Assembly: GCF_904067045.1 (NCBI RefSeq)
Contig: NZ_CAJFDC010000001.1
Location: 248,001 to 312,000 of the forward strand
Direction of reading: 5' to 3'
Length of the DNA: 64,000 bases
Origin: Pseudomonas sp. FEN
GTDB taxonomy: Bacteria; Pseudomonadota; Gammaproteobacteria; Pseudomonadales; Pseudomonadaceae
Shown here: positions 5,105-55,160 of the stretch, piece after piece
How positions within the stretch are numbered: position 1 is the first letter of the stretch
Layout: each line of letters begins with the position of its first letter
The notes under the pieces: model-generated
Seen by the model: only the letters and a program-made list of their open reading frames with translations
Databases searched by the model: none
What the model was told of the DNA's origin: nothing
Program-made: the position numbers and the translations under genes

Positions 5105-5181
5105 TGGCGCAGCGGACGGGACTCGAACCCGCGACCCCCGGCGTGACAGGCCGGTATTCTAACCGACTGAACTACCGCTGC
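5105..5181 (-). tRNA. tRNA-Asp (GTC), copy 2
   Basis: Identical in sequence to the tRNA-Asp at 1735-1811, with encoded CCA. The anticodon loop CTGTCAC gives GTC. Transcribed after tRNA-Val from the rdgC side. Confidence 0.95.
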
Positions 5182-5200
5182 GCGTAACACTGATCACGAA

Positions 5201-5276
5201 TGGTGGGTGATGACGGGATCGAACCGCCGACCCTCTGCTTGTAAGGCAGATGCTCTCCCGGCTGAGCTAATCACCC
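5201..5276 (-). tRNA. tRNA-Val (TAC), copy 2
   Basis: Identical in sequence to the tRNA-Val at 1831-1906, with encoded CCA and anticodon TAC. The AT-rich stretch at 5290-5350 upstream on the minus strand probably holds the promoter of this tRNA pair. Confidence 0.95.
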
Positions 5277-8415: not shown

Positions 8416-10293
8416 CTACCGACGTGCCATCCCCCGCAACTGCAACACCTGTTCACGCAACTGCGCCGGCACCGCCACTTCGGCCCCGACCGGGCTCCCC
8501 GCCACCAGGGTCACCCGCGACCACAGGCGCCGGAACAGCCCCTTGCCCGGATCGCGACTGAAGAAACTGCCCCACAAACCTTGCAGCGCCAGCGGAATCA
8601 CCGGCACCGGGGTCTCCTCCAGCACGCGGGTCATGCCACCTTTGAACTCGTTGATCTCGCCATCGGTGGTCAGCTTGCCTTCGGGGAAGATGCACACCAA
8701 TTCGCCATCCTTCAGATACTCGGCGATTTTCCTGAACGCGCGCTCGTAGATCTCCAGGTCCTCACCGCGCCCGGCAATCGGAATGGCCCCGGCCGTGCGG
8801 AAGATGAAGTTGAGTACCGGCAGGCGGTAGATCTTGTAATACATCACGAAGCGAATCGGCCGCCGCACCGCTCCACCGATCAGCAGCGCATCGACAAACG
8901 ACACATGATTGCAAACCAGCAAGGCCGCGCCCTCATCGGGAATCAGTTCCAGGTTGCGGTGCTCGACGCGGTACATGGAATGGCTGAGCAGCCAGATCAT
9001 GAAGCGCATGCTGAACTCGGGCACGATCTTGAAGATGTAGGCGTTGACCGCGACATTCATCAGCGACACCACCAGGAACAACTCGGGAATCGACAGCTTC
9101 ACCACACTGAGCAGCAGGATCGAGACAATTGCCGAGACCACCATGAACAGCGCGTTGAGAATGTTGTTCGCGGCAATCACCCGGGCCCGCTCGTTCTCGG
9201 CGGTACGCGACTGGATCAACGCATACAGCGGCACGATGTAGAAACCGCCGAACACGCCCAGCCCGAGAATATCCACCAACACCCACCAGGCCTGGTGATA
9301 ACCGAGCAGCGCCAGCCAGTCGTAGGCCTGCACATTCTGCGGGAGGTTACCGGAGTGCCACCACAGCAACAGGCCGAACAGGCTCAGTCCGAACGAACCG
9401 AAGGGCACCAGGCCGATTTCCACCTTGCGCCCCGACAGCCGCTCGCAAAGCATCGAACCGGCGGCGATACCAACCGAAAATACCGTGAGGATCAGCGTCA
9501 CCACGGTCTCATCGCCGTACAGCCACTCCTTGGCGTATGCCGGAATCTGCGTCAGGTAGATCGCCCCGACGAACCAGAACCAGGAGTTGCCGACAATCGA
9601 GCGCGACACCGCCGGCGTCTGCCCCAGGCCCAGGCGCAAGGTGGCCCAGGACTGGCTGAAAATATTCCAGTTCAGCCGCAACTGCGGGCTCGCCGCCGAC
9701 GCCCGGGGAATACCGCGACTGGCCAGGTAGCCGAGCACCGCCACCAGCACAATGGCGCTGGACACGATCGGCGCGTAGTGCGCCGAAGACATCATCACCC
9801 CGGCACCGATGGTCCCCGCCAGGATCGCCAGGAAGGTGCCCATCTCCACCAGGCCGTTGCCACCGACCAGTTCCTCTTCATGCAGGGCCTGGGGCAGGAT
9901 CGAGTATTTGACCGGGCCGAACAGCGCCGAGTGGGTGCCCATGGCGAACAGCGTCACCAGCATCAATGACAGGTGATCGAACACAAAGCCCACGGCACCG
10001 ACCGCCATGATGGCAATTTCGCCCAGCTTGATCACCCGGATCAGCGCATCCTTGGCAAACTTTTCGCCAAACTGTCCGGCCAGGGCCGAGAACAGGAAGA
10101 ACGGCAGGATGAACAGCAAGGCACAGAGGTTGACCCAGATGCCGCGATCCCCGGTGAGGGCAAGTTTGTAGAGGATGGCGAGGATCAACGACTGCTTGAA
10201 CAGATTGTCATTGAACGCCCCGAGGGACTGCGTCACGAAGAACGGCAGGAAGCGCCGTGTACGCAGCAGATTGAACTGTGAGGGGTGACTCAT
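8416..10293 (-). CDS. Fused MFS lysophospholipid transporter (LplT-like) and PlsC-type acyltransferase
   Basis: A 625-residue two-domain inner-membrane protein. Residues about 1-410 are an MFS domain with 12 helices, opening with FLPFFVTQSLGAFNDNLFK as in LplT. Residues about 430-625 are a 1-acylglycerol-3-phosphate acyltransferase domain with NHVSFVD (the HX4D catalytic pair) and FPEGKLT (phosphate-binding). This matches the LplT plus acyltransferase half of the LplT/Aas system that recovers lyso-phosphatidylethanolamine from the periplasm, but the acyl-ACP synthetase domain of Aas is absent, so acyl-ACP or acyl-CoA must come from elsewhere. Transcribed alone. The ATG at 10293 follows AGGGAAG closely. 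Confidence 0.85.
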   Translation of the reverse strand: MSHPSQFNLLRTRRFLPFFVTQSLGAFNDNLFKQSLILAILYKLALTGDRGIWVNLCALLFILPFFLFSALAGQFGEKFAKDALIRVIKLGEIAIMAVGAVGFVFDHLSLMLVTLFAMGTHSALFGPVKYSILPQALHEEELVGGNGLVEMGTFLAILAGTIGAGVMMSSAHYAPIVSSAIVLVAVLGYLASRGIPRASAASPQLRLNWNIFSQSWATLRLGLGQTPAVSRSIVGNSWFWFVGAIYLTQIPAYAKEWLYGDETVVTLILTVFSVGIAAGSMLCERLSGRKVEIGLVPFGSFGLSLFGLLLWWHSGNLPQNVQAYDWLALLGYHQAWWVLVDILGLGVFGGFYIVPLYALIQSRTAENERARVIAANNILNALFMVVSAIVSILLLSVVKLSIPELFLVVSLMNVAVNAYIFKIVPEFSMRFMIWLLSHSMYRVEHRNLELIPDEGAALLVCNHVSFVDALLIGGAVRRPIRFVMYYKIYRLPVLNFIFRTAGAIPIAGRGEDLEIYERAFRKIAEYLKDGELVCIFPEGKLTTDGEINEFKGGMTRVLEETPVPVIPLALQGLWGSFFSRDPGKGLFRRLWSRVTLVAGSPVGAEVAVPAQLREQVLQLRGMARR

Positions 10294-25248: not shown

Positions 25249-25282
25249 GAAAAAACCCGCATCGTCTGATGCGGGTTTTTTA
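25249..25282 (+). terminator. Rho-independent terminator of the fadL-type gene
   Basis: AAACCCGCATC-GTCT-GATGCGGGTTT followed by TTTTA; A-rich on the other side, so it may also stop transcription from the converging MFS operon. Confidence 0.88.
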
Positions 25283-36107: not shown

Positions 36108-36198
36108 GGCAGCTCTCCGTTGGGGCTGGATAAGGCAAACGGGGGGCAGGGACAAGCGCGGCCGGGGCCGTCCAGCATCGCCCGCCGTGACGCTGTGG

Positions 36199-36412
36199 GA
36201 TGGATCAGGCCGGTCTCCGGGCTCATGAGCGCGTATCCGCGGGACCGCGCGCCTTCCCATGTCGGCTGGACACAGTGGCTCAAGGCGCGGTCTTGACTCA
36301 TTTACCGTTGCGGGGGCAGCGCCGGAATCACACCTGTCGAAGGGCTCACCGGCTTCCCTGTTTCACCCTGTCGGCGGTTCGCCACAGAGCACCTGAAACA
36401 ATCGGCGAAGGT
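36199..36412 (-). promoter_or_regulatory. Cobalamin riboswitch
   Basis: The minus strand carries the ordered elements of the AdoCbl aptamer: the 5' arm GGTGCTCTGTGGCG near 36395, AAACAGGGAAGCCGGTG (36365-36344), the core GTGATTCCGGCGCTGCCCCC (about 36330-36311) followed by GCAACGG, the B12-box AGCCACTG (about 36268-36275) and the closing GGAGACCGGCCTG (36219-36207). The aptamer ends about 90 bp before the cobO start, suggesting translational or mixed control that shuts the whole B12 operon when the coenzyme is abundant. Confidence 0.93.
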
Positions 36413-36457: not shown

Positions 36458-36488
36458 GCAAACGCCCCGGACCGGCCGGGGCGTTTGC
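36458..36488 (-). terminator. Perfect 13-bp hairpin, terminator-like on the minus strand
   Basis: GCAAACGCCCCGG and its exact reverse complement flank a 5-base loop ACCGG. On the minus strand GCTTTTGC follows, a weak T-tract. It lies between the divergent B12 riboswitch and the unknown gene at 36634, so it is not at the end of any gene. It may insulate the B12 promoter from minus-strand transcription entering from the methyltransferase side. Confidence 0.5.
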
Positions 36489-45915: not shown

Positions 45916-45952
45916 AAAACAACAAACCCCGCTTGGCGGGGTTTGTTGTTTT
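45916..45952. terminator. Bidirectional terminator between convergent genes
   Basis: A perfect 17-bp stem (AAAACAACAAACCCCGC and its complement) with loop TTG; T-runs on both strands. It serves the 62-residue gene (+) and the DUF2058 gene (-). Confidence 0.9.
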
Positions 45953-47469: not shown

Positions 47470-49713
47470 TTACGGGATGCGATTGCGCCGGGTCTCGATG
47501 ATGTTCGGCAACTGGGAAATCCGCCCCAGCAACCGCCCCAGCGCATCCAACCCGGGAATCTCGATGGTCAGGGACATCAACGCGGTGTTGTCCTCCTTGT
47601 TCGAGCGGGTGTTGACCGCCAGCACGTTGATCCGCTCGTTGAGCAGCACCTGGGACACGTCACGCAACAAGCCGGAACGGTCGTAGGCGCGGATGATGAT
47701 ATCCACCGGATAAGTCAGCACCGGCACCGGGCCCCAGCTGACCTGGATGATCCGCTCCGGCTCGCGTCCGGCCAACTGCAACACCGCGGCGCAGTCCTGG
47801 CGGTGAATGCTTACGCCACGGCCCTGGGTGATGTAGCCGACGATGGCATCCCCTGGCAGTGGCTGGCAGCAGCCAGCCATCTGGGTCATCAGGTTGCCGA
47901 CGCCCTGGATCTGGATATCGCCGCGCTTGCCCGGCTTGTAGCCGGTGGCCTTGCGCGGAATCAGTTCCAGCTGTTCATTGCCACGCTCCGGCTCCACCAG
48001 TTGCTGCGCGGCATTGACCAGCTGCGCCAAGCGCAGATCGCCCGCGCCAAGCGCGGCGTACATGTCCTCGGCGGTTTTCATGTTGGCCTTGTCGGCCAGC
48101 TTGTCGAAATCCACCTGTGGCAGGCCCAGGCGCGCCAACTCGCGTTCGAGCAGGGTCTTGCCAGCCGCGACGTTCTGGTCGCGAGCCTGCAACTTGAACC
48201 AGTGGACGATCTTGGCCCGCGCCCGCGACGTGGTGATGTAACCCAGGTTCGGGTTCAGCCAGTCGCGGCTCGGCGTGCCGTGCTTGCTGGTGATGATTTC
48301 CACCTGCTCGCCGGTCTGCAGGCTGTAGTTGAGCGGCACGATCCGCCCGTTGATCTTCGCGCCCCGGCAGTTGTGACCGATCTCGGTGTGCACCCGATAC
48401 GCGAAGTCCAGCGGTGTCGCGCCCTTGGGCAGGTCGATGGCATGGCCGTCGGGGGTGAAGATATAGACCCGATCCGGCTCGATATCGACCCGCAACTGCT
48501 CGGCCAACCCGCCGATATCCCCCAGCTCTTCGTGCCATTCCAGCACCTGACGCAGCCAGGAAATTTTCTCTTCGTAGTGGTTGGAACCGGACTTGACGTC
48601 GGTGCCCTTGTACTTCCAGTGGGCACACACCCCCAGCTCGGCTTCTTCGTGCATGGCATGGGTGCGGATCTGCACTTCCAGGACCTTGCCTTCGGGACCG
48701 ATCACCGCCGTGTGCAATGAGCGGTAGCCGTTCTCTTTCGGGTTGGCGATGTAGTCGTCGAATTCTTTCGGAATATGCCGCCACAGGGTGTGGACAATGC
48801 CGAGCGCGGTGTAGCAGTCGCGCATTTCCGGGACCAGCACACGGACCGCGCGCACGTCATAGATCTGGCTGAACTCCAGACCCTTGCGCTGCATTTTGCG
48901 CCAGATCGAATAGATGTGCTTGGCCCGGCCGCTGATATCGGCCTTGACCCCGGTGGCGAGCAATTCGTTTTCCAGCTGGTTCATCACCTCGCTGATAAAA
49001 CGCTCGCGGTCCAGCCGCCGCTCATGCAGCAACTTGGCGATCTGCTTGTACTGATCGGGTTCCAGGTAACGGAACGACAGGTCTTCCAGTTCCCACTTGA
49101 TATGCCCGATGCCCAGGCGATGGGCCAGCGGCGCATAGATATCGAAGACCTCGCGGGCCACGCGATTGCGTTTCTCGTCGTCGGCGGTCTTCACCGCGCG
49201 GATCGCGCAGGTGCGCTCGGCCAGCTTGATCAGCGCCACGCGCACATCGTCGACCATGGCCACGAGCATCTTGCGCAGGTTCTCCACCTGCGTCTGACTG
49301 CCGAGGACCTGGGACTGGCGCGGGCTGAGGCTGGCGCTGATGGCGGCCATGCGCAGCACGCCATCGATCAGCTTGGCGACCACCGGACCGAACTTCTGGC
49401 TGACCGCGGTCAGGGGGATCTGCCCTTCGCGCACGCAGCGATACAGCACCGCCGCCACCAGTGAATCCTGATCCAATTTGAGATCGGCGAGGATCTCGGC
49501 AATCTCAAGGCCAGTGCTGAAACTGGAACCACCTTCGGGCCAGAGGTTCTGTGCCGCGTTGGTCTGTTGTTCGGCAAGCCTCGCGTATTCGCAGGCTTGC
49601 TTCAAGGCCTCACGGTCCAGCGCCAGATCGACGCTCACCGTATGATCGAGCCATGCCTCGAGATTGATACTGCCGTCGGTGTTGATCGGCTGGTGTGCTC
49701 TCACCTGTACCAT
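47470..49713 (-). CDS. relA: (p)ppGpp synthetase RelA
   Basis: A 747-residue stringent-response protein. The N-terminal HD region is degenerate: FGPVVAKLIDGVLRM and DVRVALIKLAERTCAIRAV lack the HD pair of hydrolases, the mark of RelA as opposed to SpoT. The synthetase domain (about 230-350) has the substrate loop RVLVPEMRDCYTALGIVH, the TGS domain begins DRVYIFTPDGHAIDLPKGATP at about 405, then a zinc-finger-like helical domain and a C-terminal ACT domain (VLTYPVDIIIRAYDRSGLLRD). ATG 49713 has AGGGAAGG upstream. Confidence 0.96.
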   Translation of the reverse strand: MVQVRAHQPINTDGSINLEAWLDHTVSVDLALDREALKQACEYARLAEQQTNAAQNLWPEGGSSFSTGLEIAEILADLKLDQDSLVAAVLYRCVREGQIPLTAVSQKFGPVVAKLIDGVLRMAAISASLSPRQSQVLGSQTQVENLRKMLVAMVDDVRVALIKLAERTCAIRAVKTADDEKRNRVAREVFDIYAPLAHRLGIGHIKWELEDLSFRYLEPDQYKQIAKLLHERRLDRERFISEVMNQLENELLATGVKADISGRAKHIYSIWRKMQRKGLEFSQIYDVRAVRVLVPEMRDCYTALGIVHTLWRHIPKEFDDYIANPKENGYRSLHTAVIGPEGKVLEVQIRTHAMHEEAELGVCAHWKYKGTDVKSGSNHYEEKISWLRQVLEWHEELGDIGGLAEQLRVDIEPDRVYIFTPDGHAIDLPKGATPLDFAYRVHTEIGHNCRGAKINGRIVPLNYSLQTGEQVEIITSKHGTPSRDWLNPNLGYITTSRARAKIVHWFKLQARDQNVAAGKTLLERELARLGLPQVDFDKLADKANMKTAEDMYAALGAGDLRLAQLVNAAQQLVEPERGNEQLELIPRKATGYKPGKRGDIQIQGVGNLMTQMAGCCQPLPGDAIVGYITQGRGVSIHRQDCAAVLQLAGREPERIIQVSWGPVPVLTYPVDIIIRAYDRSGLLRDVSQVLLNERINVLAVNTRSNKEDNTALMSLTIEIPGLDALGRLLGRISQLPNIIETRRNRIP

Positions 49714-49832
49714 CTTGCTTACCTTCCCTACGACGCAGATTCAATGCGTCAAAATCGCTGACCTGTTGTGGCCCCTGCATTCTGGCTGGGCTGACAGAGT
49801 ACGGAGGCGGTCAGTCGGACCAGACGAGCATC

Positions 49833-51185
49833 CTAGCTCGCTACAAATAACGCCATGGCCTCGACATGCGCGGTCTGCGGAAACATATCGAGGATCCCGG
49901 CACGTTTTAACCGGTAGCCCTGCTTGATCAATTCAACCGTGTCGCGCGCCAGCGTCGCTGGATTGCAGGACACGTATACCAACCGTTCGGCACCCAGGGC
50001 GGCGAGCTTGCCCACCACCTCGAAAGCACCGTCACGGGGTGGGTCCAAGAGTACCGCAGAAAAGCCGTCTTTGGCCCAACCGGCATCACTCAAAGGCAGG
50101 GATAAATCGGCCTGAAAAAAATGTACATTATGCAGATTGTTGCTCAGGGCATTGGCGGCGGCACGTTCGACCATGCTCGCCACGCCCTCCACCGCCACCA
50201 CTTCGCGCACCTGACGGGCCAGGGGCAAGGCAAAGTTGCCCAACCCGCAGAACAGGTCCAGCACACGCTCATCGGCACCGCCGTTCAGCCAGTCCAGCGC
50301 CTGGGCAACCATGGCTTCGTTGACGCCGGCGTTGACCTGCACGAAGTCGCCCGGTCGATACGCCAACTCCAGGTCCCAGGTGTCCAGGTGATAGCCCAGC
50401 GGCAATGTCGGGTCTACCGGCTGCGGGCCATCTTCGCCATGCAGCCAGAGTTGCGCGCCATGCGCGCTGCAAAAATCTCGCAGCACTTGCAGGTCCTGCG
50501 CCGACAGTGGCGCCATATGCCGCAACAACAATGCCAGCGCCGAACCGCTGAACAATTCCACATGGCCCAGGGCCTGGGGTTTGCTCAAGCGCCGCAGCAT
50601 CGCTGGCAATTCGCGCATCAGCGGTTGCAAGGCCTGTACCAGCACCGGGCAGTCGTCGATGGCGACGATATCCTGGCTGGAGGCGGCGCGAAAACCGACC
50701 TCCAGGGTCTTGCCCTTGGCGTCCCAACGCACGGCCACGCGGGCGCGACGCCGATAACCGAATTCCGGACCGGTCAGGGGCGCCGCCCACTCCAGCGGTT
50801 CGACGCCGGCGACACGCGACAGTTGCTCGGCGAGCATGCGCTGTTTCAGGGCAAGCTGGTCGTCGTGGGGCATATGCTGCACGCTGCAGCCACCGCAGCG
50901 TCCGGCATGGGCGCAAGGTGCGGGACGGCGCTGTTCGCTGGCGAGGAACACCCGTTCGGCACGCGCCTCGACCACCTTGCCGTGGGCCGCCAGCACCCGC
51001 GCCTCAACCTCTTCGCCAGCGAGGGCGCCGGCGACGAACCAGGTGCGCCCGTCAATAAAGGCAATGCCACGTCCGTCGTTGGACAGCCGCTCGATGCTCA
51101 GGCGCTGCTTCTTGCCAGTCGGTACTTGTGGCGCCCGGCTACCGCCAGTGGGCTGGAAGCGCAGGCCTCGTTCGTGCTTGGCCAT
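49833..51185 (-). CDS. rlmD: 23S rRNA (uracil-1939-C5)-methyltransferase
   Basis: A 450-residue TrmA-family methyltransferase. An N-terminal TRAM domain (about 25-85), an iron-sulfur motif ([15 protein letters not shown]), SAM motif [16 protein letters not shown] and the catalytic Cys in [13 protein letters not shown] identify RlmD. The ATG at 51185 overlaps the cysM stop in TGATG. It is followed by relA (119 bp gap). Confidence 0.96.
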
Positions 51186-52087
51186 CAGTTGGGCGCGTCG
51201 TAGATGCCGGTCGACAGGTAGCGGTCGCCGCGGTCACAGATGATCGCGACCATCACCGCGTTCTCGACTTCCCGCGACAGGCGCAACATCGCCGCCACCG
51301 CGCCGCCGGAGGAGACGCCGCAGAAAATGCCTTCCTCGCGAGCCAACCGGCGCATGACGTCCTCGGCTTCTTCCTGGGCCATGTCGACGATACGATCGAC
51401 CCGTTCGGCCTGGAAAATCTTCGGCAGGTATTCGTGGGGCCAACGGCGGATGCCCGGAATCGAGGCGCCTTCCATCGGCTGCAGACCGACGATCTGCACG
51501 TCGGGGTTCTGCTCCTTGAGGTAGCGCGACACGCCCATGATGGTGCCGGTGGTGCCCATGGAACTGACGAAATGGCTGACGCTGCCCTGGGTCTGGCGCC
51601 AGATCTCCGGACCGGTGCTGGTGTAGTGCGCCTCGGGGTTGTCGCCATTGGCGAACTGGTCGAGCACCTTGCCACGGCCTTCGGCCTGCATGCGCTCGGC
51701 CAGGTCGCGGGCCCCTTCCATGCCCTCCTCGCGGGTCACCAGGATCAACTCGGCGCCATAGGCGGTCATCGCCGCCTTGCGTTCGGCGGTGGAGTTGTCC
51801 GGCATGATCAGGATCATCTTGTAGCCTTTGATCGCCGCGGCCATGGCCAGGGCGATCCCGGTGTTGCCCGAGGTGGCTTCGATCAGGGTGTCGCCGGCCT
51901 GGATCTGCCCGCGCAGTTCGGCGCGGGTGATCATCGACAGTGCCGGACGATCCTTGACCGACCCCGCGGGGTTGTTCCCTTCGAGCTTGAGCAACAGGGT
52001 ATTGCTGGTGACGCCGGGCAGGCGCTGCAAGCGGACCAGGGGCGTGTTGCCGACGCAATCGGCGATGGTGGGGTACTGCAAGGTCAT
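51185..52087 (-). CDS. cysM: Cysteine synthase B
   Basis: A 300-residue PLP enzyme that makes cysteine from O-acetylserine (or phosphoserine) and sulfide or thiosulfate. The PLP lysine is in [12 protein letters not shown] and the substrate loop TSGNTG is at about 70. It begins [20 protein letters not shown] at ATG 52087. The large palindrome of the intergenic region lies 80 bp upstream. It leads a cysM-rlmD-relA-mazG gene row. Confidence 0.95.
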
Positions 52088-52165
52088 GGCGTATTCGCAA
52101 TCCAGACTGCGGGGGCTGACATCATACCGACAAACGTCGGCGCTCCATATCACGCAAAGTATGGT

Positions 52166-52195
52166 GCTTATGGTTTATAGGTATAAGCCATAAGC
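52166..52195. promoter_or_regulatory. 30-bp near-perfect palindrome between cysM and gacS
   Basis: Arms GCTTATGGTTTATA and TATAAGCCATAAGC around a central GG pair match at 13 of 14 positions; the one mismatch (T against G) would still pair as a wobble in RNA. It lies 79 bp upstream of cysM and 211 bp upstream of gacS. AT-rich TATAAA and TATACC cores suggest it covers a promoter. No T-tract follows, so it is more like an operator than a terminator. Confidence 0.6.
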
Positions 52196-52406
52196 AGCGT
52201 GTCACCTTCAATTGCCAGAATACCCGGCGAGCCCTCGGCCGCGGGTGGTTCGCCGAGGGGGCGATCCATGCAATCCTTGCGAACTTTGCGAGATTTACCG
52301 CCCTGCAAATGGCTACACTGCGCAAGTGGAGCGGGCGCAGGACGCGCACGCCGATAATCGAAGATGGCCGTGTCTGCTGGACGCTGTATCTGATGGAGAC
52401 TGTGGC

Positions 52407-55160
<2,754 letters not shown>

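Follow-up and report, generated by a model that had tools for sequence, protein, structure and literature searches.

A conserved LysR-type dyad upstream of cysM in Pseudomonas as a probable recognition site of CysB

Introduction

The closest described counterparts of the site analyzed here are CysB sites known from E. coli and Salmonella, at the cysK, cysJIH and cysP promoters. According to the accessible part of the source, they are centered 50–60 bp before the start and follow no firm consensus (PMC11329422); indeed, the CysB consensus has been described as “very weak”. The same source cites the BenM half-site pair ATAC-N7-GTAT for CysB and puts forward the proposal that two short pairs of half-sites, no more than ~60 bp in extent, could be bound by a CysB tetramer (PMC11329422, in part). 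The LysR-type layout, as given in the accessible part of PMC8407307, combines a recognition site with the pattern T-N11-A, often at about −65, with an activation site at −35 and −10. In P. aeruginosa, sulfur starvation raises the msu, ssu and cys genes along with LsfA, and several of the cys genes are described as CysB-regulated (PMC12581299, in part). The cysM gene goes unmentioned in the accessible main text of that study and is likewise absent from the main text of a paper on the CysB iModulon (PMC9023270), and CysB is not named in the accessible main text of a P. aeruginosa HT-SELEX atlas. A search of the literature on Pseudomonas CysB and cysM, mostly of listings, yielded no title or opening that describes a cysM site, and a search for FinR as a binder of the site found nothing.

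Here we examine the intergenic region between the divergent genes cysM and gacS in a 64,000-nucleotide stretch of the Pseudomonas sp. FEN genome (henceforth the window). Like the E. coli and Salmonella CysB sites, the conserved element of this region lies upstream of the −35 region at a sulfur gene; unlike them, it has its predicted center at −63 and is clearly conserved (compared with the accessible part of PMC11329422). The E. coli cysM gene follows cysPUWA and is without such a promoter of its own. The element resembles the BenM pair in that it is short and dyadic, with two half-sites that would together accommodate one pair of DNA-binding domains, as proposed for CysB (PMC11329422, in part), and differs from it in letters and spacing, which at cysM are TAT-N2-C-N5-G-N2-ATA. 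With the general LysR-type layout it shares a T-N11-A within the dyad, whose predicted center is −63, and a further conserved block that covers the predicted −35 region (PMC8407307, in part), the difference from the described sites being that the regulator at cysM is, on sequence grounds, a candidate only.

Results and Discussion

The palindrome between cysM and gacS contains a conserved 21-bp dyad

The first-pass annotation of the window drew attention to a 30-bp near-perfect palindrome in the cysM–gacS gap (Table 1), and the element is indeed present: the arms GCTTATGGTTTATA (52166–52179) and TATAAGCCATAAGC (52182–52195) flank a central GG and are complementary in all but one of their 14 positions. 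A search with 14-nt arms, at most one mismatch and loops of 0–4 nt recovered nine inverted-repeat matches at five places in the window, against a mean of 0.05 and a maximum of one in 60 dinucleotide shuffles of the window, and none of 3000 shuffles of the intergenic stretch 52088–52406 yielded such an inverted repeat. The palindrome is not a product of chance. It had also been called the strongest symmetric element of the window, which it is not: longer perfect arms of 17 nt (45916–45952) and 14 nt (25250–25281) are found, perfect 13-nt arms occur at 36458–36488, and a search of the window for repeats did not include the palindrome among those it reported. The span originally assigned to it, 52141–52200, does enclose the palindrome and additionally takes in the conserved −35 block described below.

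Table 1. Features of the cysM–gacS region and the genes downstream of cysM, in window coordinates
Feature	Position	Strand	Remarks
relA	47470..49713	-	NF008124, 862.4 bits; 119 bp after rlmD
rlmD	49833..51185	-	NF009639, 554.7 bits; one-base overlap of its start with the cysM stop
cysM, cysteine synthase B	51185..52087	-	NF008735, 549.5 bits (cut-off 413)
Predicted cysM −10 box, TATGAT in cysM sense	52121..52126	-	dyad starts 61 bp away
Conserved block over the −35 region, ACTTTGCGTGATATGG in cysM sense	52145..52160	-	Proposed activation half of the site
30-bp near-perfect palindrome	52166..52195	.	Lineage-special; at least 10/15 pairs in 2/130 upstreams
LysR-type dyad CTTAT-N11-ATAAG, proposed CysB recognition site of cysM	52167..52187	-	Exact match in the FEN genome; center ~−63
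Second dyad	52174..52194	.	7-bp shift, overlaps the first dyad; matrix score 20.0 vs 25.0
Conserved block before gacS, apart from the dyad	52285..52336	+	Also near gacS elsewhere in G030, G004, G017 and G032
gacS, BarA-type hybrid sensor kinase	52407..55160	+	Best match NF008318 BarA, 836.9 bits, under the cut-off of 890; type also from its domains

Of the 139 Pseudomonas genomes examined, all but one have a detected CysM (138); upstream DNA from 132 of these gave 130 distinct sequences (the six cysM genomes outside the count are G139, G144, G096, G014, G013 and G075; one upstream, L154, lacks an ATG at the inferred cysM start). The upstreams were aligned on the cysM −10 box, a TAT[GCT]AT hexamer present in all 130. 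Among the 80 named loci kept, the window CysM is nearest to those of Pseudomonas sp. QS1027 and P. gingeri, at 97–98% identity. The annotation had named a lack of conservation in related Pseudomonas as one possible refutation. At least 10 of the 15 pairs of the 30-mer form solely in the FEN upstream (L001) and that of genome G006 (L002), the remaining upstreams reaching at most nine, and with its symmetry common to just these two the 30-bp palindrome was rejected as a functional unit. The inner 21-bp dyad, in contrast, is found at a matrix score of at least 10 in 112/130 upstreams, the matrix being derived from the same cysM sites, and is missing in the other 18. The longer palindrome of the FEN lineage exists because a second dyad overlaps the 21-bp dyad at a 7-bp shift.

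The dyad holds a constant position in the promoter: with its start 61 bp from the cysM −10 box, at least eight of ten core letters are kept at this fixed register in 106/130 upstreams, and complementary pairs at the dyad register average 5.62 of 10, against 1.69–3.14 in 16 neighboring registers. The most conserved letters are TAT at positions 3–5, C8, G14 and ATA at 17–19, with the T-N11-A inside the symmetry represented by T at position 5 in 113 upstreams and A at position 17 in 118. The inner letters vary, sometimes on both sides together, as in TTATAGC...GCTATAA (L121) and TTATGCC...GGCATAA (L126). Since the 130 upstreams share descent, they do not amount to 130 independent events. The predicted transcription start of cysM lies near 52114, and the 61-bp distance thus places the center of the dyad at about −63, a figure that assumes a −10 box beginning at −12 and a predicted start. 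Downstream of the dyad, the −35 block GCGTGATATGG (~−41 to −31) is present with at most one mismatch in 110/130 upstreams, and the two elements travel together: 109 upstreams have both, three have the dyad only, one has the block only and 17 have neither. No sigma-70 consensus promoter was found between 49650 and 52420, where shuffling leads one to expect 0.5, an absence that agrees with an activator-dependent promoter and proves little.

Such an arrangement makes it very likely, as judged from the layout, that a LysR-type protein uses the dyad at cysM. One might instead think of an RNA hairpin, a terminator or a repeat sequence that acts without any regulator, as several other inverted repeats of the window resemble terminator hairpins and a repeat-like run adjoins one similar site (L159). 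However, the predicted cysM start is downstream of the dyad, the conserved part of the dyad stays at a constant distance from the −10 box while the outer symmetry is lost, and neither an Rfam match nor a terminator-like site was found at the dyad; we consider this reading extremely improbable.

The dyad goes with cysM and not with gacS

The annotation had suggested an operator of cysM, gacS or both, of which the cysM part is borne out by the conserved dyad and its fixed spacing, and the gacS part is not. In 29 of the 130 loci gacS is at most 400 bp from cysM, and 22 of the 29 have the dyad, as would be anticipated if it were a shared operator of the two divergent genes wherever they are neighbors; yet it is also kept in 90 of the 101 cysM loci without gacS within 400 bp (Fisher p = 0.12 against 22/29). 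Further, in four genomes gacS is found away from cysM, on another contig (G030 and G004) or far off on the same contig (G017 and G032), and within the 330 bp upstream of these genes the dyad scores at best −9.3 to 0.6, although each keeps the block of its own that precedes gacS. Within that block, CTACACTGC is present in all 14 aligned gacS upstreams, whether cysM adjoins or not. The dyad is thus kept without gacS and missing before separate gacS genes, which argues that the site goes with cysM. We hence rejected gacS as a target, given the missing dyad before the four gacS genes that do not adjoin cysM; a shared operator appears highly improbable, and on the present sequence evidence gacS is a neighbor.

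Related motifs in the sulfur promoters of the FEN genome and E. coli

The search for the same recognition signal at other genes used a symmetrised weight matrix built from 75 unique cysM sites only. In the FEN genome, eight sulfur genes outscore 684 other upstreams (Mann-Whitney p = 7.9e-4). As the background genes are longest-ORF calls, and many of their upstreams sit inside other genes, which lowers the background, the test was repeated with free upstream DNA only, giving p = 2.9e-3 against 359 upstreams that are ORF-free for 100 bp; against 252 AT-matched upstreams, p = 0.017. Of 200 column-shuffled matrices, four equaled the real matrix on the FEN sulfur genes. The cysD, cysH, sbp1, sbp2, cysI and ssuE promoters had been inspected by eye before scoring, and tauA and msuE (TIGR03566, 261 bits) were added later, before their scores were known. 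The fraction of the background scoring as high is 0.003 for ssuE, 0.009 for cysD, 0.073 for msuE, 0.088 for cysI, 0.10 for sbp2, 0.18 for tauA, 0.25 for sbp1 and 0.69 for cysH: ssuE and cysD stand in the top 1% of FEN upstreams, tauA and sbp2 have weak sites, and by the matrix cysH and sbp1 have none in this genome.

Across genomes, the best cysD match falls in one conserved block in 12/12 genomes, in seven of which it exceeds the 90% level of the first background, as do seven of nine ssuE loci. A matrix scan additionally recovered two genes that stand outside the above p-values: the peroxiredoxin gene before ssuE, which by position and domains is lsfA and has a match scoring 5.2 to 11.5 at −99 to −107 in all eight of the nine ssuE loci that carry it, and the D-cysteine desulfhydrase gene dcyD (NF003030), whose site lies at −89 to −91 in 6/7 genomes. 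In the FEN genome the distance from the match to a −10-like hexamer, chosen by pattern, is 62 bp for ssuE, 51 for cysD and 54 for dcyD; cysI and msuE of this genome have no such hexamer at 45–71 bp from the match. The second-highest matrix score of the scanned stretches, 21.8, belongs to a site at positions 9178–9198 of L376 (G000:C1:509178-509198), 31 bp before a gene for an Omp85/POTRA protein of 795 aa.

In E. coli, cysD, ssuE, cysZ and tcyP are under CysB control. These four and five further CysB promoters of E. coli K-12 score as follows with the Pseudomonas matrix: cysK 7.9, cysP 8.0, cysD 9.4, cysJ 7.5, tauA 6.1, ssuE 8.9, cysB 16.5, cysZ 9.3 and tcyP 10.8. As a group the nine exceed 129 other upstreams, taken from genes that do not share an intergenic region with a target (p = 1.0e-5), 36 AT-rich ones (p = 9.4e-4) and 65 whose intergenic DNA spans 100 bp or more (p = 1.1e-4), and none of 500 column-shuffled matrices matched the real one on them. 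When confined to the five with published CysB control, namely cysK, cysP, cysJ and cysB (PMC11329422, in part) and tauA (by a reference title on tauABCD in the accessible part of PMC12581299), the comparison with the 65 promoter-like upstreams gives p = 2.3e-3. Single matches are weak: most of them are equaled or exceeded by 12% of these 65 upstreams. With −10 boxes chosen by pattern and not from mapped starts, the distance from the match to a −10-like hexamer is again 61 bp at cysK (TATGCT), cysD (TATAGT) and cysJ (a poor TAACCT), 52 at cysP and 51 at cysB, and tauA and tcyP have no such hexamer at 45–71 bp. The motif is thus common to CysB targets as groups, in the FEN genome and in E. coli, and not to every member. 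The highest match in the E. coli background (16.5, GTTATCGCATTTGGTTATGAG) lies in the gdhA/ynjH intergenic region (L446 42136-42372) and may belong to another LysR-type protein.

Exact CTTAT-N11-ATAAG occurs at four places in the FEN genome, and the three other than cysM were not recognized as sulfur promoters from the ORFs listed for them; with at most one mismatch there are 33 places genome-wide against 62 for the reversed control, so that the exact pattern is not enriched in this genome. Similarly, TTATAGC-N5-GCTATAA (at most one mismatch) was found at 13 places in 12 of 59 genomes, against 27 places for the reversed control; seven of the 13 places are cysM promoters. Across genomes, the sharp form of the dyad was not found to recur at one other gene family, save two algD-like loci.

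In this connection, a dyad-like sequence lies 663–669 bp upstream of an AlgD-like gene in six of 30 loci examined (L266–L271), the 30 being drawn from 55 genomes with a match. It is directly followed by ACCGTTCGT(A/G), which resembles the AlgR motif. Given that CysB is reported to bind the algD promoter of P. aeruginosa (PMC9431422, in part), the algD-like dyad may be a CysB site beside an AlgR-like one, an idea that is suggestive only.

CysB as the candidate regulator of cysM

The annotation knew of no described regulator for the site; the evidence points to a known one, CysB, since the matrix ranks sulfur genes in this genome and CysB promoters in E. coli above background. The observation behind the annotation was thus real and its interpretation half right. 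The FEN genome encodes a CysB (NF009326, 599 bits, cut-off 436) that also matches solved CysB structures and, over an alignment of 324 positions, shares 209 residues with the E. coli protein, 46 of them among the first 60. We consider the dyad at 52167–52187 to be probably the CysB recognition site in the cysM promoter, and do not put this more strongly because backgrounds made of promoters only weaken the p-values. It is conceivable that cysM, and possibly some of the sulfur genes, are instead controlled by another LysR-type regulator, be it a CysB paralogue or an uncharacterised protein: the layout suits LysR-type regulators in general, the sharp dyad has the restricted distribution noted above, and cysH and sbp1 are without a site. 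Nevertheless, the matrix carries over to E. coli CysB promoters and, in the FEN genome itself, to ssuE and cysD, and we hold this alternative to be unlikely.

If CysB is indeed the regulator, one pair of DNA-binding domains of the tetramer would occupy the dyad at −63 and the other pair the −35 block; the positions of the dyad (−63) and the block (−36) agree with the half-site layout proposed for the CysB tetramer (PMC11329422, in part). When sulfur is short, the inducer acetylserine would accumulate and CysB would activate RNA polymerase at the weak cysM promoter, i.e., CysB probably switches cysM on. The comparative data show the conservation of the site, its fixed spacing, the co-occurrence of dyad and block, the attachment to cysM and not gacS, and the related motifs in sulfur promoters of the FEN genome and E. 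coli; CysB binding, activation, the inducer response and the operon discussed below we infer. What emerges from the conserved cysM sites is a dyad of 21 bp that also transfers, at the level of the group, to promoters of E. coli. It may give a sharper definition of the CysB recognition sequence and makes that sequence directly testable.

A possible link from sulfur shortage to RelA

The genes cysM, rlmD and relA are arranged head to tail (47470–52087). The rlmD gene is probably in the same operon as cysM, with transcription of cysM probably running on into rlmD and perhaps into relA. As the rlmD start falls on the last base of the cysM stop and no terminator-like site was found in the rlmD–relA gap, the operon may include relA, for which a place as its last gene is possible; a cysM operon with relA has been predicted for P. 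aeruginosa (PMC12800425, in part). With no terminator-like site before relA, CysB control could reach the stringent-response synthase, which suggests that sulfur shortage may be linked to cysM-rlmD-relA in Pseudomonas. In its fullest form, the proposal would be that CysB reads a portable dyad, TTAT-N2-C-N5-G-N2-ATAA, with a distance of 61 bp to the −10 box preferred from Pseudomonas to E. coli, and drives cysM-rlmD-relA such that sulfur shortage raises RelA. We offer this combination tentatively and with considerable doubt. Were it true, a definite dyad would replace the “very weak” CysB consensus, and a short supply of sulfur would directly raise the supply of the (p)ppGpp synthase RelA.

Other features of the window

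Elsewhere in the window, a cobalamin riboswitch (104.7 bits) is found on the minus strand at 36191–36411, and the perfect 13-nt hairpin at 36458–36488 (plus coordinates) lies upstream of it. Finally, the same two tRNA matches are found at both 1738–1906 and 5108–5276, 3370 bp apart and equal in score, which suggests a duplicated segment.
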